Shown in pieces: positions 9,001 to 64,000 of a stretch of DNA of 64,000 nucleotides. The DNA is from Terfezia claveryi. Taxonomy: Eukaryota; Ascomycota; Pezizomycetes; Pezizales; Pezizaceae. Positions within the stretch are counted from its first letter, which is position 1. Every line of letters starts with the position of its first letter. Position numbers and translations under genes: made by a program. Under the pieces are notes generated by a model. That model worked only from the letters and a program-made list of their open reading frames with translations, did not search any database and was not told where the DNA came from. The DNA lies in assembly GCA_015179025.1 (NCBI GenBank), contig WHUX01000266.1, positions 1 to 64,000 on the forward strand, in the 5' to 3' direction.

Positions 9001-12000
9001 TCTCCTCTTCCTCTCTCTTTGCCTCCATCTCCTCCAATTCTCTCTGCTTCTCCTCCTTTTCCAAACGTAATCTCTCCGCCTCCGCTTGCGCCTCGGTTGT
9101 TTTCTCTACAGCGAGAGCCTCCAGGACAATACGCTCCTCTTCCTCCCGGCGGCGCTGTTCCGCTCGGCGAGCTTGCAATGCGGTTGCAGCAAGAAGTGAT
9201 GCTCTGTACTCTGCCATTCGGCGTTCCTGATCGGCCTGGATTTCTCGCTCACGCTGTTGCTCTCTTAGATGTTCCTCTTGAATTCGTTGGTGCTCCTCCT
9301 CACGAAGCCTCTCTTCCTCAATGCATCTTGCTTCCTCAGTAGCCCTCTCCGCCTCAACTTCAGCCAGCCTCTCCTCCTCCATAACCCTCCTCTCCTCCGC
9401 CGTCCTCCGTTCCACAACCCTTGCCTCTTCTATAAGCCTGGCTTCCTGTTCCTTGAGCGCTTGAATCTCTGCAACTCTCCTCGCCTCCTCCTCAGTGATC
9501 CTGACTTCCTCCGCAATTCGAGCCTCCTCCGCCTCACGAGCAATGCGGAGCTCCTCATCTCTGCGAGCTTGCTCCTCGGCAATATACTGTTCTCGAGCAA
9601 TCCTTGCCTGTTCGATCCTATGAGCCTGCTCTATAATTAAGGCCTGTTCTCGTGGAATCCTAGACTCCCCAATTCGGCGAGCCTCTTCGGCTTTGCGAGC
9701 TTCTTCAGCAAGGCAGAGCTCTCTAGATATTCGCTCTTGCTCAGGGCGTCGAGCTTCCTGCTTAGCGAGCTTCTTCTCCAGTGCAATCCTCGCTTCTTCG
9801 GCAAGTCTCGCTTCCTCGATCCCCCTCTCCTCCTCAATTCTCACTCTCTCTAGCTCCATTAATCGCATCTCCTCTCTAACCCTCGCCTCTTCTGCCATCC
9901 TTGCTTCACTCCTCTTTGCCTCATCAATCCTTCTAGCTTCCTCCACATGATAGATTTCCCTCGCCATTCTGTCCTCCTCTTCCCTCTTCGCCCTCTGTTC
10001 AGCTTCCCGCTGTGCATTCTCTTCGGAAATTGCCCTCTCATAAGAAATCTTCGCCTGCTCAGCGGCAATAGAGGCTAATCTCGCCTGCTCGGCGCGCCGA
10101 GCTTCTTCAATCCTAGCTACTTCAATTGCGGTAGCTTCGGCGGCAGCTGCTGCTCTTCGTTCTGCTTCCAGACGACTCTGCTGTTCGGCGATGCGCTCTG
10201 CCTCGATGCGGCGGGCTTCTACATATACATATTAGTAAAGTTTCTTCCTTGCATTCTTTGATGTTTCACTCACCAGCTTTCCACTCCTCTTCCATTCTCC
10301 TCTCTGCCTCAACTCTCTCTTGTTCTGCAATTTCCCTAGCAATACGTTCCTCCTCCATTCTTTTCTCAAATGCAATACGCTCAGCTTCCCTCCTCTCTGC
10401 CTCGAGCCTCTCTTGTTCTGCAATTTCCTTAGCAATACGCTCTGCCTCCATTCTCTTCTCATACGCAATTCGCTCAACTTCAACCCTCTCTTGCTCCACG
10501 CTTTCTCTAGCAATACGTTCTTCCTCCATCTTTCGCTCATATGCGATCCTCTCCGCCACCCTCTTCTTAGCTTCAACCCTCTCCCTCTCTATCCTCTCAG
10601 CCTCAATACGCTCAGCTTCCAATCTCTCCCTTTTTGCAATCTCCACGGCGATTCTCTCAGCCTCTAATCTCTCCTTCTCAATCCTCTCAGCTTCAACCCT
10701 CTTTCTAGCAATTCGTTCCTCCTCCACTAATCTCCGCTCATATTGCAATTTTTCTCTCTCCCTTCTCTCAATCTCGATTCTCTCAGCTTCAGCCCTCTCC
10801 CTTGCAATTCGTTCCTCCTCTAATCTCCGATCATATTCAATCCTCTCTCTCTTCTCAGTTTTAACCCGCTCAGCTTCAGCTCTCTCCCTGGCAACACGTT
10901 CCTCCTCCAATCTCCGTTCATATTCAATCCTCTCTCGCTCCCTCCTCTCAGCTTCCTTCCTTTCAGCTTTTAATCGTTCCTTCTCAACAGTCTCCGAAGC
11001 AATTTGTTCGGCTTCAATTCTTTGCTTGTGTTCATATTCAATTCTCTCCGCCTCTCTTCGTTCAGCTTCAATTCGTTCTGCCACTCGACGCTCATATTCA
11101 ATCCTCTCCCTCTCAGCAATCTCTCTTGCGACACGCTCAGCTTCGATCCGTTCAGCCTCTATCATCTCCCTCTCCCGTCTCTCACTCTCCATCTTCTCTG
11201 CTAGTGTAGCTGCTGCCACTCTCACAGCTTCTTCTTCTGCCAGGCGCTTGAGTTCGGCTTGTCTTATAGCTTCTTTTCGAGCTGCCTCTTGCCTTGCTGC
11301 CTCTTCCTCAGCCAGACGCCTAAGTTCTGCTTGTCTTAGGGCTTCTTGTCGGATGGCTTCTTGTCGGATGGCTTCTTGCCGTGTTGCCTCTTCCTTCTCC
11401 AGGCGCTCGAGTTCTGCTTGCCGTAGTGCTTCTTGTCGCAAGGCTTCTTGTCGCTCGGCCTCCGCCCTTTCCCTAGAAATTCTCCCTTCCTCAATTCTCT
11501 CCCTCTCAATCCTCTGCCTCTCTGCTTCCGCTGCTGCTGCTGCGACTCTTTGAGCTTCTTCTTCTGCTAGGCGTTCGAGCTCGGCTTGTCTTAAGGCCTC
11601 TTGTCGGAGAGCTTCTTTTCGAGCTGCCTCTTGCCTTGCTGCCTCTTTCTCAGCCAGACGCCTAAGTTCTGCTTGTCTTAGGGCTTCTTGTCGGATGGCT
11701 TCTTGTCGGATGGCTTCTTGCCGTGATGCCTCTTCCTTCTCCAGGCGCTCGAGTTCTGCTTGCCGTAGTGCTTCTTGTCGCAAGGCTCCTTGTCGCAAGG
11801 CTTCTTGTCGCAAGGCTTCTTGTCGCTCGGCCTCCGCCCTTTCCCTAGAAATTCTCTCTTCCTCAATTCTCTCCCTCTCAATCCTCTGCCTCTCTGCTTC
11901 CGCTGCTGCTGCTGCGACTCTTTGAGCTTCTTCTTCTGCTAGGCGTTCGAGCTCTGCTTGCCTTAAGGCCTCTTGTCGGAGAGCTTCATTTCGAGTTGCC

Positions 12001-22996: not shown

Positions 22997-23520
22997 AGAT
23001 GTTTTGAGGTGCTTGTAGGGTTGGAACCCAGGGAACGGCTCCCACCCGCGCGAACTTCCACCCCCCCACCACCAGGACCCAGATGTTTTGAGGTGCTTGT
23101 AGGGTTGGAGCGCAGAGAACGGCTCCCACCCGCAGGAACTTCCACCTCCCCACCACCAGGACCCAGATGTTTTGAGGTGCTTGTAGGGATGGAGCCCCAA
23201 CAACGGCTCCCACCCAAGCAAGACTTCCGCCCCCGCCCCCGCCCCCCAGATGTTTTGAGGTGCTTGTGGGGTTGGAGGCCCAGCAACCACTCCCACCCGA
23301 GCGAACTTCCCCCCCCCAACCCCCGAGCCAACCCAGATGTTTTGAGGTGCTTGTAGGGGAGGGGTCGAAAGAACGACTTCCACCCGAGCACCCCCCAGCC
23401 AGACCCCAGATGTTTTGAGGTGCTTGTAGGGTTGAGGTCCCAAAAAGGGGCCCCACCCGAGCAGACGTCTCCCTCCCCCCGGCAGCCGGAACCCAGAATG
23501 TTTTGAGGTGCTTGTAGGGT
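22997..23520. repeat. GC-rich minisatellite, seven units of about 84 bp
   Basis: The core GATGTTTTGAGGTGCTTG recurs seven times, at about 22997, 23081, 23165, 23248, 23335, 23408 and 23495. Spacings are 84, 84, 83, 87, 73 and 87 bases. Between cores lie C-rich stretches with runs of 7-9 C. On the minus strand long frames are open in all three phases (22773-23456, 22886-23443, 22912-23544), repeating STSKHLG, QAPQNIW and YKHLKTSG respectively. Units of 84 are multiples of three but 83, 87 and 73 are not uniformly so, which argues against one long repeat protein. Confidence 0.9.
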
Positions 23521-23604
23521 TGGAGTCGATAGAACGACTCCCAACCCAGAACAGTCGCGAAAGTTATCGTTTATAACCTATCTAAAGAATTGTCTTTATT
23601 TATT

Positions 23605-57665: not shown

Positions 57666-57836
57666 ATACTTTACCTAATATATATGAGTATATATACTTG
57701 TAATATAGTATAAATATAGAGTGTGAATATATAGTGCAAATATATAAGTGAGTATATAGATATAAGATATTTGAGTATATAAATATATTACTCTGTAACT
57801 CTACTCTTACAATTCTCTCACAAACTATCAAAGGAT

Positions 57837-58330
57837 CACTTTAGAGCAGTTAAACAAGTCCTATGCTACCTTAAAGGTACTTGTGACCTCACTTTGACCT
57901 ACAAACTCGGACAACCTCTTTCATTCAAAGGATTTACTGATTTAGACTTTGCTGGATATTGTGACACTCGACGGTTGACCTCAAGATATATTTTCAAGCT
58001 CATCTCTTATACTATCTGCTAGAGATCACAAAAACAAAAATGCGTGACAACCTCCACTACCGAAGCAGAATATATTGCTAGTTCTACTGCTGCTAAACAA
58101 CAAATTTGGCTTCAGAATGTATTAAGTGAGCTTTCTATCAAAGATATTCCTTCTGCCCTCTCTTGTAACATAAACTGCTCTATCAACCTGTCTCATAATC
58201 CTCGAATCTCTAATAAGTCAAAACATATTGACTTTGCTTACTACTTCGTCTGTGAACTCATTAACTCTGGCACTATCATGCTTTTGAACATTCCTAGTAA
58301 ACACAATCTAGCAGATATATGCATAAAGGC
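57837..58330 (+). mobile_element. Copia RNase H fragment, opposite strand to the full element
   Basis: One frame reads HFRAVKQVLCYLKGT, FKGFTDLDFAGYCDTRRLTS, the STTEAEYIASS RNase H motif, QIWLQNVLSEL, SKHIDFAYYFVCELI and NIPSKHNLADI, the standard Copia C-terminal order. One stop (TAG near 58021) replaces the usual Trp. There is no RT upstream and no LTR. It has far less C-to-T decay than the adjacent element, so it has a separate origin. Confidence 0.85.
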
Positions 58331-58552
58331 TAGTGTGCGCCACGGGGTGAGTCGGTCCGAGTTTCTGGCCCTTACAACTCGTTTGGCTATTAACTCGCCT
58401 CGGTCTCTGCCTACTGCAACTCGCCTCGGACCACTTCGCTGATTAATCAGTGATCTACATATTACTCGCCAAGATCCCTTACTAACCTCGTTCACACTTG
58501 TGCATTTGCCAAGTCCAGGGTTTTCCGTTCTTTCCCCTATTCGTCCATGCAT

Positions 58553-58760
58553 ACGGCTTGTCACGGATTGCCCGTCTTGTCACGGATTGCCACTTTTGTC
58601 ATAGATTGCCAGTCTTGTCACGGATTGCCAGTCTTGTCACGGATCGCTCGTTTCGTCTTCCAGCATGGCACCGATCCCACTAAACCCCGTTCCTGTCCCT
58701 TTGTATGGTTTTTGCCAATGTCACCATTCTTAGTCACGGATTGCTTCTGCTGTCACGATT
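58553..58760 (+). repeat. 19-bp tandem array with TGTCACGGA core, left of the hAT gene
   Basis: Five units of about 19 bases (CTTGTCACGGATTGCCAGT and variants) lie at 58558-58652. Two more cores occur at 58733-58760. The core is shared with arrays at 62412-62565 and in two introns of the transposase. Confidence 0.85.
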
Positions 58761-59485
58761 TCTAGAACCATTCTTTCAAATTTCTCTCTTACGTTCTCTA
58801 TGCTCTGTTTGTGCTGCCATACGTCCACACATTCTATATCAAACATCCTACCTACTCGTCCCCATGTTATCCTTTTCCTTGCACCCAAATTTCTCACGTT
58901 TGCTTCTAATCCCTAAACCCTCCATCCGCCCTATCTTAATAATAATTCATACATAAATGCTCTTAAGATTCCTACGTCCACCCAAGAAGTGCCCACAGTT
59001 CCACATCGTGAATTATTCCCATTCTCCCCAAACTCAATTTACATCCCGTAAGTAATCAATGACTAAAATAAAAAAAATAAAAAAGAGTATCAAACATGGA
59101 TTCATCATGAGAACTAATCCACCCTGGTGTCGCTCGTCATAATAATCACAATTCAACCAAAAAAACAACACATTAAGGAAACCCATGCACAAAAAGAAAC
59201 CCACCCATACAAGGGAAGCTAATAGGAAAAAGCAAAACTCAGGTATAAAGGACAAAGGAAAAAAACAATGAACAAAGGATAATTGACCATACCTACCTCG
59301 GTTTGTGCCCCCTCAAGTATGCAGGCTCACACTTTGTAATTCCTACGCTGAGTGGGCCGTAACTTTTTCTGGAGCCTCATTGCCATTGAAGGCGTCAGGT
59401 TGACGGATGGAGAGGCAGGGCGCTTAGTCCCGCGATGTGGGGTGCAGGGTGTTGGGGTCCCTCTTTCCTCCCTCAATAGGCTGCC
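58761..59485. other. Non-coding stretch downstream of the hAT transposase
   Basis: No gene is seen. An open frame at 59034-59255 (minus) is hydrophobic but unsupported. The element's terminus should be here or to the left; I cannot identify a TIR. Confidence 0.45.
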
Positions 59486-60239
59486 TTAGAATAAGCCAAT
59501 TCCTCCCGCTGACTGCGCACTGAAATTGTGGAATGGGCTAGAAATCTGAGAAGTTGTATCTCCCATATCAAGATCATCTCCCTTAAACTCTTCCTCTCCC
59601 TCCACGCTACTCTCATACTCTGACACCGTATCACCATTTCCTGATAGTCCATCTAGAGTGACTGGCATCATGCAGCAGAGGAATTCTGTGTCATATCTGA
59701 GAGCCTGTCTCTCCTGGCTCACATCAATTTCATCATGATCAGCTAATCCTTCTTCCACATGTGCAGGAGTGTTCTCAGGGTCTGGTTCTGTATATTTTGC
59801 GTGTATCGAGTCCCAAGATTTCGTCAACATTAGCGCTGTGATCATCTGGTGACCCATTCGGTTCCGGCGGTAAGGCAAAATATCTCGAGCACTGCTGAAT
59901 ATACGCTCAACAGCCACAGATGTCAGTGGAATACTCAATATGTCCCTTGCCATTCGTGCTAGCGTCAAGTATTCAATGGCATGAACCTTCCACCAGGATA
60001 GGGGATACTGCCCATCTAGTATGGCCAGACCACTGGTTAAGTATCTCTTGACCTCCGGAATATTCTCTGATTTGGTCACTGTCCGCTCTTGTAGTCGACA
60101 TATGATGTAGGATTGCTCTGAATCGTCGAGGCGACTCTTCTGAGCCTGGGGCTCCAGTGCATACCTGGTGTAGTTAATATCAAAATATTCCTCAAACTGT
60201 ACTCTAAGTACCCAATAAGGTCAGATTCTCATTCGTTTC

Positions 60240-60298
60240 ATAATGTCACGGATACATCTGTTGTCACGAATGCATCTGTTGTCACGGAATGTACTCCA
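60240..60298 (+). repeat. TGTCACGGA motifs in the last transposase intron
   Basis: Three units (GTCACGGATACATCTGTT, GTCACGAATGCATCTGTT, GTCACGGAATG) lie inside the intron 60323-60204. Confidence 0.8.
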
Positions 60299-60984
60299 TA
60301 ACGTTCGTAGAATTGATACTTACTGGTAATATTCTATGTATGGTATGCAGTCAACAGCCTCCTGATTCATGGTAGGATCCTGTACCGAGACATTTCCCCA
60401 ATCCGCGTACAAGGATAACTTCTTAAATGGATCCAGGATAGTCGCTAGATTGTAGATGAGTGATTGTTTTTCCGTTCTCGAATAATACTTCTGCAATATG
60501 AGGTGACAGCCTTTCATTGCGCACAAAAATCCTGGTGCCCACGTCGCGCTGGCTGGAAGTTTGTGTATACGTTTGCGTTGTTTTTCGATGTGGTCGAAAA
60601 TGTCGTTGTAGATGAATAACGCGTTGTGTATAGTCGCATGCTGGCCTGTGGAAATAGCATGTGTATAATCAGAGAGCAGTTTCAGAAAAATTATAGCCTC
60701 CTGAACTTGGGCCCATTCTTCTTTACTCAGCTACAATAGGCTATACTTTCCTTCAGTTGTAGTCAGACTGATCCATTGTTCAATGTATGACTGTAGTCGC
60801 AATGCTCGTATAAGCATGTCAAAGGTGGAGTTCCACTGAGTTCTGACGTCCTGTATGAGGCCCATTGGCACGGGAGTGTCATTTTGGAGTTCTTTGAATT
60901 GTGCCAACCGTTGAGGACTAGCCACTATAGCTTTACACAGCTCCCGAACCTGGAAAACTGTTAGCACATGGGATTGGGGGATAG

Positions 60985-61065
60985 GATTCCATGACATTGT
61001 GGAATTCCATGACATGTGGAATTCCGTGACATTGTGTAATTCCGTGACATGTGGAATTCTGTGAG
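60985..61065 (-). repeat. TGTCACGGA motifs in the second transposase intron
   Basis: Four units on the minus strand (ATGTCACGGAATT twice, ATGTCATGGAAT twice), spaced 17-20 bases, lie inside the 144-base intron 61093-60950. Orientation is opposite to the intron array at 60240. Confidence 0.8.
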
Positions 61066-62120
61066 GGGTTATTGCAGAGCAAATATGACTAACCTTGCAT
61101 ACTGATCGCGCAAATGTACCTAGCGCATACCCTTGCAGTGCTTTGATTGAAGTCTCCACTTGAGGAGCAGATAAGATAGTGTCATTATTATCTGGGCTTG
61201 ACTTAAGTTCTTTCATAAACTGGTTGCTCACCAACGCGATAACATGTGCAAGGCAGGGAAGTCTATATTGCTCCGCATTCCACTTTGGACAGAATACATT
61301 TGCCTGTAAATGCTTGGCCAGTGCTATGTTGACACTAGCATTGTCTGAGACAATAGCTAAGACCCGGCTTGTGATACCCAAGTTCAGATTATTTGGCTTA
61401 GCTTATTGGCCAGTTGTACTGCATTATGAGATTCCCCTCCAAGGAATTGGAATCCGATAGTATGTTGACGCACTTGCCATTCTTTGTCTATGTAGTGGAG
61501 TGTTGTACCCATAAATACTAATTTATTAGGTGAGGTCCAACAGTTAGTGGCGAGGTAAAGCAATGTATTGTCTGGAAGGCTTTTCTTGAGCTTCACTTGA
61601 ATTTCCGCTGCATAATGATGTATACTACACCGAAGTGTAGTTGCACTAGGGATATTTATTCGAGGCCTGAGAAGGTTTAGGAGGTGGTGGAATTGTGGAT
61701 GCTCGATTGTCCGGAAAGGTAGGTTGGATGCAATGACTGTTTTCATCAGTTCATGTTGAAATACATCATCACTAAATTGAGGAACTTGTATAGCAGTAGT
61801 AGTTGCAGCCTACGGATAATATCAGTCTGCGTATTCTGCATTGGCACGGATTATATAATTACCCTCACAAACATGTTGGCAATATCCTCCTTCTTTCGCC
61901 CAGTTGCGGCGTGGTATCTCCTAGAGCTCAGGTGTAATTTCATGTGTGTCGTACCCAAGTTGAATGCACTCGGGTGCTGTAACGAACTGTTGCAACCCAA
62001 GCAATATATGAAAGGTTCTCTACTACTGACCTTTGTGCCTTGACCAAATTGAGCCCAGTGCATTACCGTTCGCAGTTTGGAATCCCATCGTGGTGGGCTA
62101 ATATTGTTTCGATTCAGCAT

Positions 62121-62411
62121 GTCCTTGGCAAGATTGTCACGGACTTTGCCGGCCCATTCGGTCGTCTCCCACCATTCTGTGAAACAGGCAGACTTCTCGG
62201 CCTCCTACTTGAACGCAGTACCCCCTAGAATCCTGGTGAGGGACGAATCTATCGCAAATGAAGGGACCAGGACGTTTGGAGAGATAGACATATTGGTAAA
62301 AGGGGTTGGCGGTTGATACTTTCAGGCTGTTGTAGTTGGTAGACTGGTCAAGCAATACATCAGGGAATTGAACATATTTATTAACTCTCTAGGACAGAGG
62401 GGACAGTATCA
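62121..62411. other. Upstream region of the hAT transposase
   Basis: This probably holds the transposase promoter. No distinct element or gene is recognised. Confidence 0.4.
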
Positions 62412-62565
62412 CGGACTTCTGTCACGGAAAACTACTTCTGTCACGGAAATCCGCTACTGTCACAGAAAACCACTTCTGTCACGGAAAACCACTTCTGTCA
62501 TGGAAAACCACTTCTGTCACGGAAAACTACTTCTGTCACGGAAAACTACTTCTGTCACGGAAAAG
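62412..62565 (+). repeat. 19-bp tandem array with TGTCACGGA core, right of the hAT gene
   Basis: Eight units of CTTCTGTCACGGAAAACTA and variants have an exact 19-base period. The array is 290 bases upstream of the transposase start, in the same direction as the left array. Confidence 0.9.
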
Positions 62566-62772
62566 TGGGTGGCTTCGAGAGGCGCATATCCAATGCCATA
62601 GGTACTTGTAGTACCTCTTCAATTCAAAAACTCAACGTTGTATACAAGGTTACACAAGTAAGGATACAGTAGGAAAGAAATGTCAGTTATTGGCCGACCC
62701 TTGCGCATCTACTGCACACCAAACCCAATTCCAATCCAAAGCCGCAATCCTCCGCGCAGGCCAATGCGTACT

Positions 62773-63728
62773 CTAATCATCATTTTCCAATGCTTCTGAG
62801 GCTTCTGAGGCTTCTGACGCTTCTGATGCTTCTGAAGCTTGTAAACTTTCCAAACTAGAAGACGACCCCCAAAGCTCGCTTGGAGAGCCAAAGCTTTCAC
62901 TATTGGTTGAGCAGGATACGCCTGAGGAACCACTATACTCTGAATCCACTGCACACTCTTCAACATTGTCCGCAATCATATCCACTTCTACGTCCGTGTC
63001 GCTCTCGCTAGATGTGGGAGTGTTCCATTGTAGTAAAGAGCATCTCCAAGTCCAGTCGGGCATTGCGTAGAAGTTGATAATCTCTGGAGGTCTACATAGA
63101 GTTAGCCTGACATTGTGATTAGATGCAACATTAAGAACATGCCTTCGGGAAGGTAGAAGCGAGATGCGCTCCCCACAACATTGTACTATTATTCTGGGCG
63201 ATGGGTGCCATGGTTGGGGCACAAATACACGATGTCGAGACACCAAGGCGTCTGGTATTCGATGGGTCTCGGAAAGCACCTAGAATAAGGTAAGTTACAG
63301 CTCAGATATTCTTCGGCCCAGTGTCAACTTACAGATGGAAATTGACAATTTTCGCATATACCCCAGGATAACGCACCCATGCCATTGGTAGTTGGTCGGC
63401 AGAGAGTCAGGTAAAAGTTGAAAAGAGTAACCCACAATAAATCGTAAAGAGTGTAGTTATCTAGGTAAAATGGATCCCAAGTAGACGTGGCTCCAGGGTG
63501 TAAGTAGTACCGACCTATCCAGATCAGCTCAAGGAGTACTTGGGCTGCTACTCGAGACTCAATCCTGCTTGGGTCGAATCGTTCCATAACCAACAGTGTA
63601 GCCTCAAATTTTACCAATTTACTGCTACCCAGGCTCAGGAAATATTGTAGTCCATTGTCCTGCTCCCACAACACTCTGAAGCATTCAAACGACTCTTCAT
63701 CATCCGGGTTGTAATAGTTCTCCGCCAT
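62773..63728 (-). CDS. Unknown two-exon protein with Ser/Glu-rich C-terminus
   Basis: Exons 63728-63333 and 63279-62773 join in frame across an intron with GTAAGT donor and TTCTAG acceptor, giving 300 residues. The start MAENYYNPDDEESFECF is acidic. Residues about 10-130 look globular and helical (LLVMERFDPSRIESRVAAQVLLELIW split here, then YDLLWVTLFNFYLTLCRP). A CENC pair sits at the exon end, and a mixed second domain has RHRVFVPQPW. The last 80 residues are Ser/Glu-rich and finish in five SEA repeats before LENDD. No TM or signal peptide is seen and no family is recognised. It lies beside a transposon, so it may be lineage-specific. Confidence 0.65.
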
Positions 63729-64000
63729 ATTGTTAGGCTAATATAAAATGGCAATACCTACATGCTATATATATATATAGTTTTATTCATTTATTTTATT
63801 TTTTATTTTTCATTTTTAAAAAAGAAAAAACTCGTTGCTCATATTCGATGACTATTGCCTATTCTAGGAATTATCTGGATATTGTAATACCGCATCTACT
63901 GGCGAATAACGATCCTTGTCAGTTCTCTGACTTTTGCTGCAGACATCATTATTAGCAAGTCAGTGAGTATGTTAACACCACCTGTTTTGCACTCGGACAT
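63729..64000. other. AT-rich right edge
   Basis: A TATATATATATA tract at 63766-63778 and a T/A-rich stretch to 63830 lie upstream of the gene. Nothing further is seen before the edge. Confidence 0.5.

Follow-up and report, generated by a model that had tools for sequence, protein, structure and literature searches.

Histone H3-like genes carried by hAT transposons have been published in Pyrenophora tritici-repentis (PMC3538342) and in Mycosphaerellaceae (PMC6710886), and the accessible parts of both papers interpret the histone as a captured host gene. In Hermes, according to the accessible text of PMC10368747, BED domains bind short subterminal repeats, and subterminal repeats of Ac are mentioned in the discussion of the same paper. 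Here we describe a hAT element of the truffle Terfezia claveryi in which a short motif, TGTCACGGA, stands beside or inside each recognised gene, so that the self-control or self-shielding of an element becomes directly testable. With a probability of roughly 0.55, we consider TGTCACGGA to be a site for a DNA-binding protein encoded by the element, which would serve transposition at the ends and gene control or anti-silencing inside.

The element and its genes

The window, that is, the whole stretch of 64,000 nucleotides that was analysed, contains the left part of a hAT transposon of about 12.6 kb, and the contig ends inside the element. All gene models were built from genomic sequence alone, with exon borders set by eye. 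The features of the window copy are listed below.

58323..58330, no strand: left target-site duplication, the 8 bp before the terminal inverted repeat (TIR), assigned by position; its right partner lies outside the window
58331..58348, plus strand: left TIR, TAGTGTGCGCC..., the element start; 27 of 45 homology rows begin at 58330-58331
58559..58643, plus strand: left subterminal array with a 19-bp period, four exact TGTCACGGA cores and one unit with two mismatches
59486..60203, minus strand: last transposase exon, with the hAT dimerisation domain (PF05699, E 1.3e-19); borders by eye
60204..60323, minus strand: transposase intron with three motif units at 60244-60288; splice sites by eye
60324..60949, minus strand: transposase exon with an in-frame stop in the window copy, absent from other copies, which read through
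60950..61093, minus strand: transposase intron with four motif units at 60988-61049; splice sites by eye
61094..61809, minus strand: transposase exon, frameshifted in the window copy and open in copy C54
61869..62291, minus strand: first transposase exon, with one in-frame stop, a zinc-finger-like CxxC...HxxxH stretch and an exact core at 62135
62407..62561, plus strand: internal array of nine units with at most one mismatch, six of them exact, in the gap separating gene B from the 5' end of the transposase
62773..63279, minus strand: gene B exon 2; no Pfam match; a 46% identical relative exists in the related family L003
63333..63728, minus strand: gene B exon 1; borders by eye

The preliminary description had placed arrays of the same direction on both sides of the transposase gene. 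Both arrays do lie on the plus strand, but that at 62407-62561 is internal rather than flanking, because the element continues beyond the window and is cut by the contig end at 64173. An element ending at this array was rejected: homology continues beyond it, and in other copies the inverted TIR partner lies about 12.6 kb from the left tip. A search of the 72.6-Mb genome with a 4.4-kb query gave at least 45 matches, self and fragments counted, a lower bound since 36 of 206 candidates were scored. Full-length copies measure 12596 bp (C773), 12844 bp (C54) and 12633 bp (C778); among seven copies examined, these three have both ends, each with an exact 8-bp target-site duplication, and in the other four one or both ends lie outside the fetched stretch or contig. 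The consensus start of hAT TIRs is YARNG, which is fitted by the TAGTG found at both ends of C773 and C54; the right end of C778 reads TAGTA. With its dimerisation domain, 8-bp duplications and short TIRs, the element has the characters of a hAT transposon. A search of a plasmid collection gave no match. The insertion site (window 57783-58322) presumably belongs to a Copia-like retrotransposon, at its RNase H end; a Pfam search gave no support for this. Elsewhere in the window there are long runs of tandem repeats at 10297-11894 (periods 87-93 bp and 15 bp) and a tandem array of 6.6 units of 84 bp at 22997-23543.

The transposase and gene B are encoded on the minus strand, and genes C, D and that of an H3-like protein on the plus strand. 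The spliced transposase model matches the hAT dimerisation domain PF05699 at E 6.9e-19, and its best protein matches are hAT transposases of Penicillium and Aspergillus, at about 27-33% identity. In the window copy, the transposase is interrupted by two in-frame stops and one frameshift; its first-exon stop is common to C54 and absent from C773, and the transposases of these two copies carry separate lesions. A zf-BED domain is present in some distant relatives of the transposase, but Pfam found none in the transposase itself, where the CxxC...HxxxH stretch was recognised by eye, and this counts against the binding-site reading.

A Pfam search with the models of B, C and D gave no match. Protein D begins with a basic stretch and ends in a long acidic tail, with dozens of D and E residues in copy C62, and its relatives were found in Terfezia boudieri, Tirmania nivea, T. 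claveryi and among metagenome proteins. A Pfam scan of 28 of these relatives gave only six weak one-member matches (HTH_23 being the best at 0.0039, and HMG_box_5 among the others at 0.066), no PDB sequence matched D below E 1, and the predicted structure of D, itself weak (mean pLDDT 56.4), had no structural match with an E of 0.001 or lower. Among the D proteins of T. boudieri and of metagenomes, some start with what may be translated motif units.

The gene for the H3-like protein lies beyond the window and is described from the C773 copy.

L042:6270-6947, plus strand: H3-like gene, the second intron of which holds three motif units

That intron is 77 bp long. The protein has 168 aa and matches PF00125 at E 1.9e-11; in the PDB, an earlier splice model matched H3 chains from E 8.8e-8, and the histone fold is closest to that of H3. 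In H3, ARTKQ is the context of K4, and ARKS is that of K9 and K27. The H3-like protein starts with MARTKQ and so keeps ARTKQ, and it has no ARKS in a divergent tail with insertions; since the conserved H3 tail is absent, we call it H3-like and not H3. A search for relatives among 5.8 billion proteins gave 11 candidates, and none of these reached E 0.001. An open frame rich in Gly, Ala and Pro (L042:6889-7206), situated between this gene and the right end, could represent a sixth gene or simply reflect composition.

The order of transposase, D and H3-like genes recurs across groups in which the compared transposase exon is only about 42-77% identical. In locus rows compiled by hand, a divergent D gene lies within 8 kb of the transposase at 12 of 32 loci with at least 78% identity, 25 of 49 with 55-77%, 8 of 14 with 40-54% (a bin that includes some decayed members of nearer groups) and 0 of 31 below 40%. 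In the first three bins, this D is followed by an H3-like match in 9, 9 and 5 cases. Counted from D, the H3-like gene is found downstream within 3.5 kb on the same strand at 52 of 96 loci, with one pair on opposite strands. Such a recurrent order in diverged groups points to a histone gene that has long been kept on this transposon lineage.

Distribution of the motif

Exact TGTCACGGA occurs 15 times in the window, always inside 58559-62561, compared with a mean of 0.32 expected by shuffling, and none of 100 shuffles reached 15; thus the 19-bp arrays reported earlier are real. The clusters of three and four units claimed for two introns were likewise found, at 60244-60288 and 60988-61049, the latter on the minus strand. 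Copies with at most one mismatch number 23 in 58331-64000 versus 5 in 1-58330, and one of them lies at 58732, beyond the left subterminal array. Tandem Repeats Finder delimits arrays at 58557-58644 (period 19 bp, 4.6 units), 60244-60288 (18 bp, 2.5 units), 60986-61064 (17-18 bp, 4.2-4.5 units) and 62415-62564 (19 bp, 7.9 units). The exact copy at 62135 is exonic, which speaks against a binding site.

In C773, 40 of the 41 exact cores fall into nine clusters, situated at both ends, in two introns of the transposase gene and next to or within the four further genes (B, C, D and H3-like); 40 of the 41 are outside exon models. Exact cores (in brackets, those with at most one mismatch) number 41 (56) in C773, 42 (57) in C54, 7 (31) in C778 and 10 (31) in C133, and in the partial copies 39 (50) in C21, 25 (34) in C62 and 3 (23) in C23; unit numbers vary among copies at the same place. 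Across the nine C773 clusters, the nine core columns carry 2.0 bits each and the flanking columns 0.03-1.08 bits, so that the core is constant while linkers and periods (12, 17-18 and 19 bp) vary. The two subterminal arrays are inverted relative to each other, and both read inward. A free satellite is not supported, because the nine clusters of one element share the nine-base core but not the linkers. Short derivatives also have the motif: ten places of about 0.7 kb, L004 included, match the L004 query nearly throughout; L002 (764 bp) retains five units together with TIRs and an exact duplication, and L004 has seven units and no matching duplication, with at most one mismatch per unit in both.

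In the whole genome there are 317 pairs of TGTCACGGA at 19-bp spacing (0 for a control pattern) and 883 pairs within 39 bp (1 for the control). Placement was assessed for the first 100 listed pairs, on C1-C32, and the first 100 listed single cores, on C1-C21. An element match lies within 3 kb of 91 of these pairs, and two more, on C11, belong to L003, which encodes relatives of B and C. Together, 93 of the first 100 pairs listed are linked to this hAT lineage, short derivatives included, either lying in an element or no more than 3 kb from one, contrary to what arrays spread genome-wide with no tie to hAT copies would give. The other seven, away from any element match, weigh against the binding-site reading (C1:932402; C2:135584 and 276593; C4:14423; C10:3448, 147895 and 147917); several of these repeat every 9 bp and could belong to repetitive coding sequence. 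Single cores often arise by chance, with 2136 occurrences versus 500 for the control, and of the first 100 listed, 49 are near elements and 51 are not; both facts are unfavourable to the same reading. Inspection of other hAT copies, as had been proposed, found clusters in copies of the lineage, and none of the pairs listed is within 5 kb of the five transposase matches below 40% identity on C1-C32. Copy C27, of a third group, has no motif pair among the pairs listed, again a point against binding.

Related families keep the clusters in place. In L003, where B and C are 46% and 47% identical to those described here, clusters with other linkers occupy the same two gaps, and over 170 aligned codons of B the third-position difference is 0.43 versus 0.31 for first and second positions. 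In the C45 and C23 copies of a second family, a motif pair lies 350 bp past the matching transposase exon, compared with 339 bp in C773.

Old copies are heavily decayed. Relative to C773, 772 of 878 changes in C778 are C-to-T or G-to-A, affecting 331 of 1042 CpG and 317 of 1756 CpA sites. The decay of the C778, C133 and C23 copies is RIP-like, being chiefly C-to-T at CpG and CpA, and A before CpG is worst affected. No protection of the motif from decay was seen in three old copies, in which changed motif CpGs versus other CpGs number 30/78 and 301/964, 34/75 and 287/930, and 17/46 and 142/557. In C133 the motif CpGs even decay faster (p 0.014), which fits a general raising of the rate by A before CpG, as in the core.

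Candidate roles of the motif

The earlier proposal of transposase-binding sites with an added regulatory role is in part supported and seems to be the best reading of the arrangement. We favour binding because motif pairs are tied to the element (883 versus 1 in the control, 93 of the first 100 listed), the core is constant across nine clusters with different linkers, nearly all C773 cores avoid exon models and the end arrays are mutually inverted. Moreover, L003 and the second family keep clusters at matching places, and L002 keeps the ends together with five units. To our knowledge, the subterminal repeats of known hATs are not usually reported inside genes, and this we count against the same reading. 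Its further support is the binding of short subterminal repeats by Hermes BED domains in the accessible part of PMC10368747. The reader of TGTCACGGA would most likely be the N-terminal zinc-finger-like part of the element's own hAT transposase. The inward-pointing subterminal arrays could help to assemble the cutting complex, like the short subterminal repeats of other hATs, and the clusters in introns, leaders and intergenic gaps may place the element genes under joint control of the same protein or of a second one, D or B. Core binding, the identity of the binder and the regulatory role are all things we infer.

The internal clusters might instead be mainly an anti-silencing or chromatin address, at which D or another element protein keeps the genes open, possibly by loading the H3-like histone. 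The layout is the same as that of the motifs, often tandemly repeated, that VANC21, an anti-silencing protein of Arabidopsis VANDAL elements, occupies in introns, intergenic and terminal non-coding regions, as given in the accessible part of PMC5735166; the element encodes an H3-like protein with ARTKQ and without ARKS, as well as D with its basic start and acidic tail; and the heavy C-to-T change in old copies means that the host attacks these elements. However, the motif CpGs in three old copies have decayed at least as fast as the rest, though these copies are probably dead, and D has a poorly predicted structure (mean pLDDT 56) and no recognised domain, so that we regard this role as unlikely, with some appreciable chance. 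Quite unlikely is a self-made chromatin system, in which a DNA-binding protein would read the TGTCACGGA clusters and D would load there an H3 with ARTKQ and without ARKS, and thereby exclude host heterochromatin, and the C-to-T mutation linked to it, from active copies.

A host transcription factor that binds the core, and that the element uses to switch its genes on together, would agree with clusters upstream of genes and in introns and with the seven of the first 100 listed pairs that lie elsewhere in the genome. Still, the motif shows a strong link to the element, and a host factor alone fails to explain the inverted arrays at the tips or their retention in derivatives of about 0.7 kb, which makes this explanation improbable. 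Neutral tandem repeats that slippage or conversion created and that then multiplied inside the element could account for unit numbers that vary among copies at the same place; conversion, however, would carry the linkers along, yet linkers and periods differ around a constant core, and cluster positions recur in the diverged family L003. We consider neutral origin very improbable.

Comparison with known systems

In a literature search covering titles and the starts of abstracts, with subscription papers mostly outside its reach, we found no publication on these elements, on this motif or on an H3-carrying hAT with arrays. H3-carrying hATs and the motif arrays of VANDAL elements are each already published, and their combination in one element is apparently unreported. 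VANDAL elements are Mutator-like and not hAT, and they have no histone gene, unlike the truffle element. The two are alike, as far as the accessible part of PMC5735166 describes the Arabidopsis elements, in being DNA transposons with several genes, in which introns, intergenic stretches and terminal non-coding parts carry tandem copies of a single short motif, and motif repeats are found in all three kinds of places here. With Hermes and Ac, as treated in the accessible text of PMC10368747, the element shares short repeats near both tips; it differs from them in that the 9-bp core forms regular arrays, most copies of which are internal. The likeness to the hATs of Penicillium and Aspergillus consists in the transposase protein matches. 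Compared with the accessible descriptions in PMC3538342 and PMC6710886, the truffle element likewise has a hAT transposase, TIRs and an H3-like gene, and it shares 8-bp duplications and C-to-T decay with the Mycosphaerellaceae elements (PMC6710886). By the same descriptions the published elements measure 5.6 kb and 9.5-9.9 kb, versus about 12.6 kb here, and motif arrays, present here, are described in neither of the accessible texts. Finally, whereas the published H3-carrying hATs were interpreted as captures, the histone here appears to be a long-kept passenger of the transposon.
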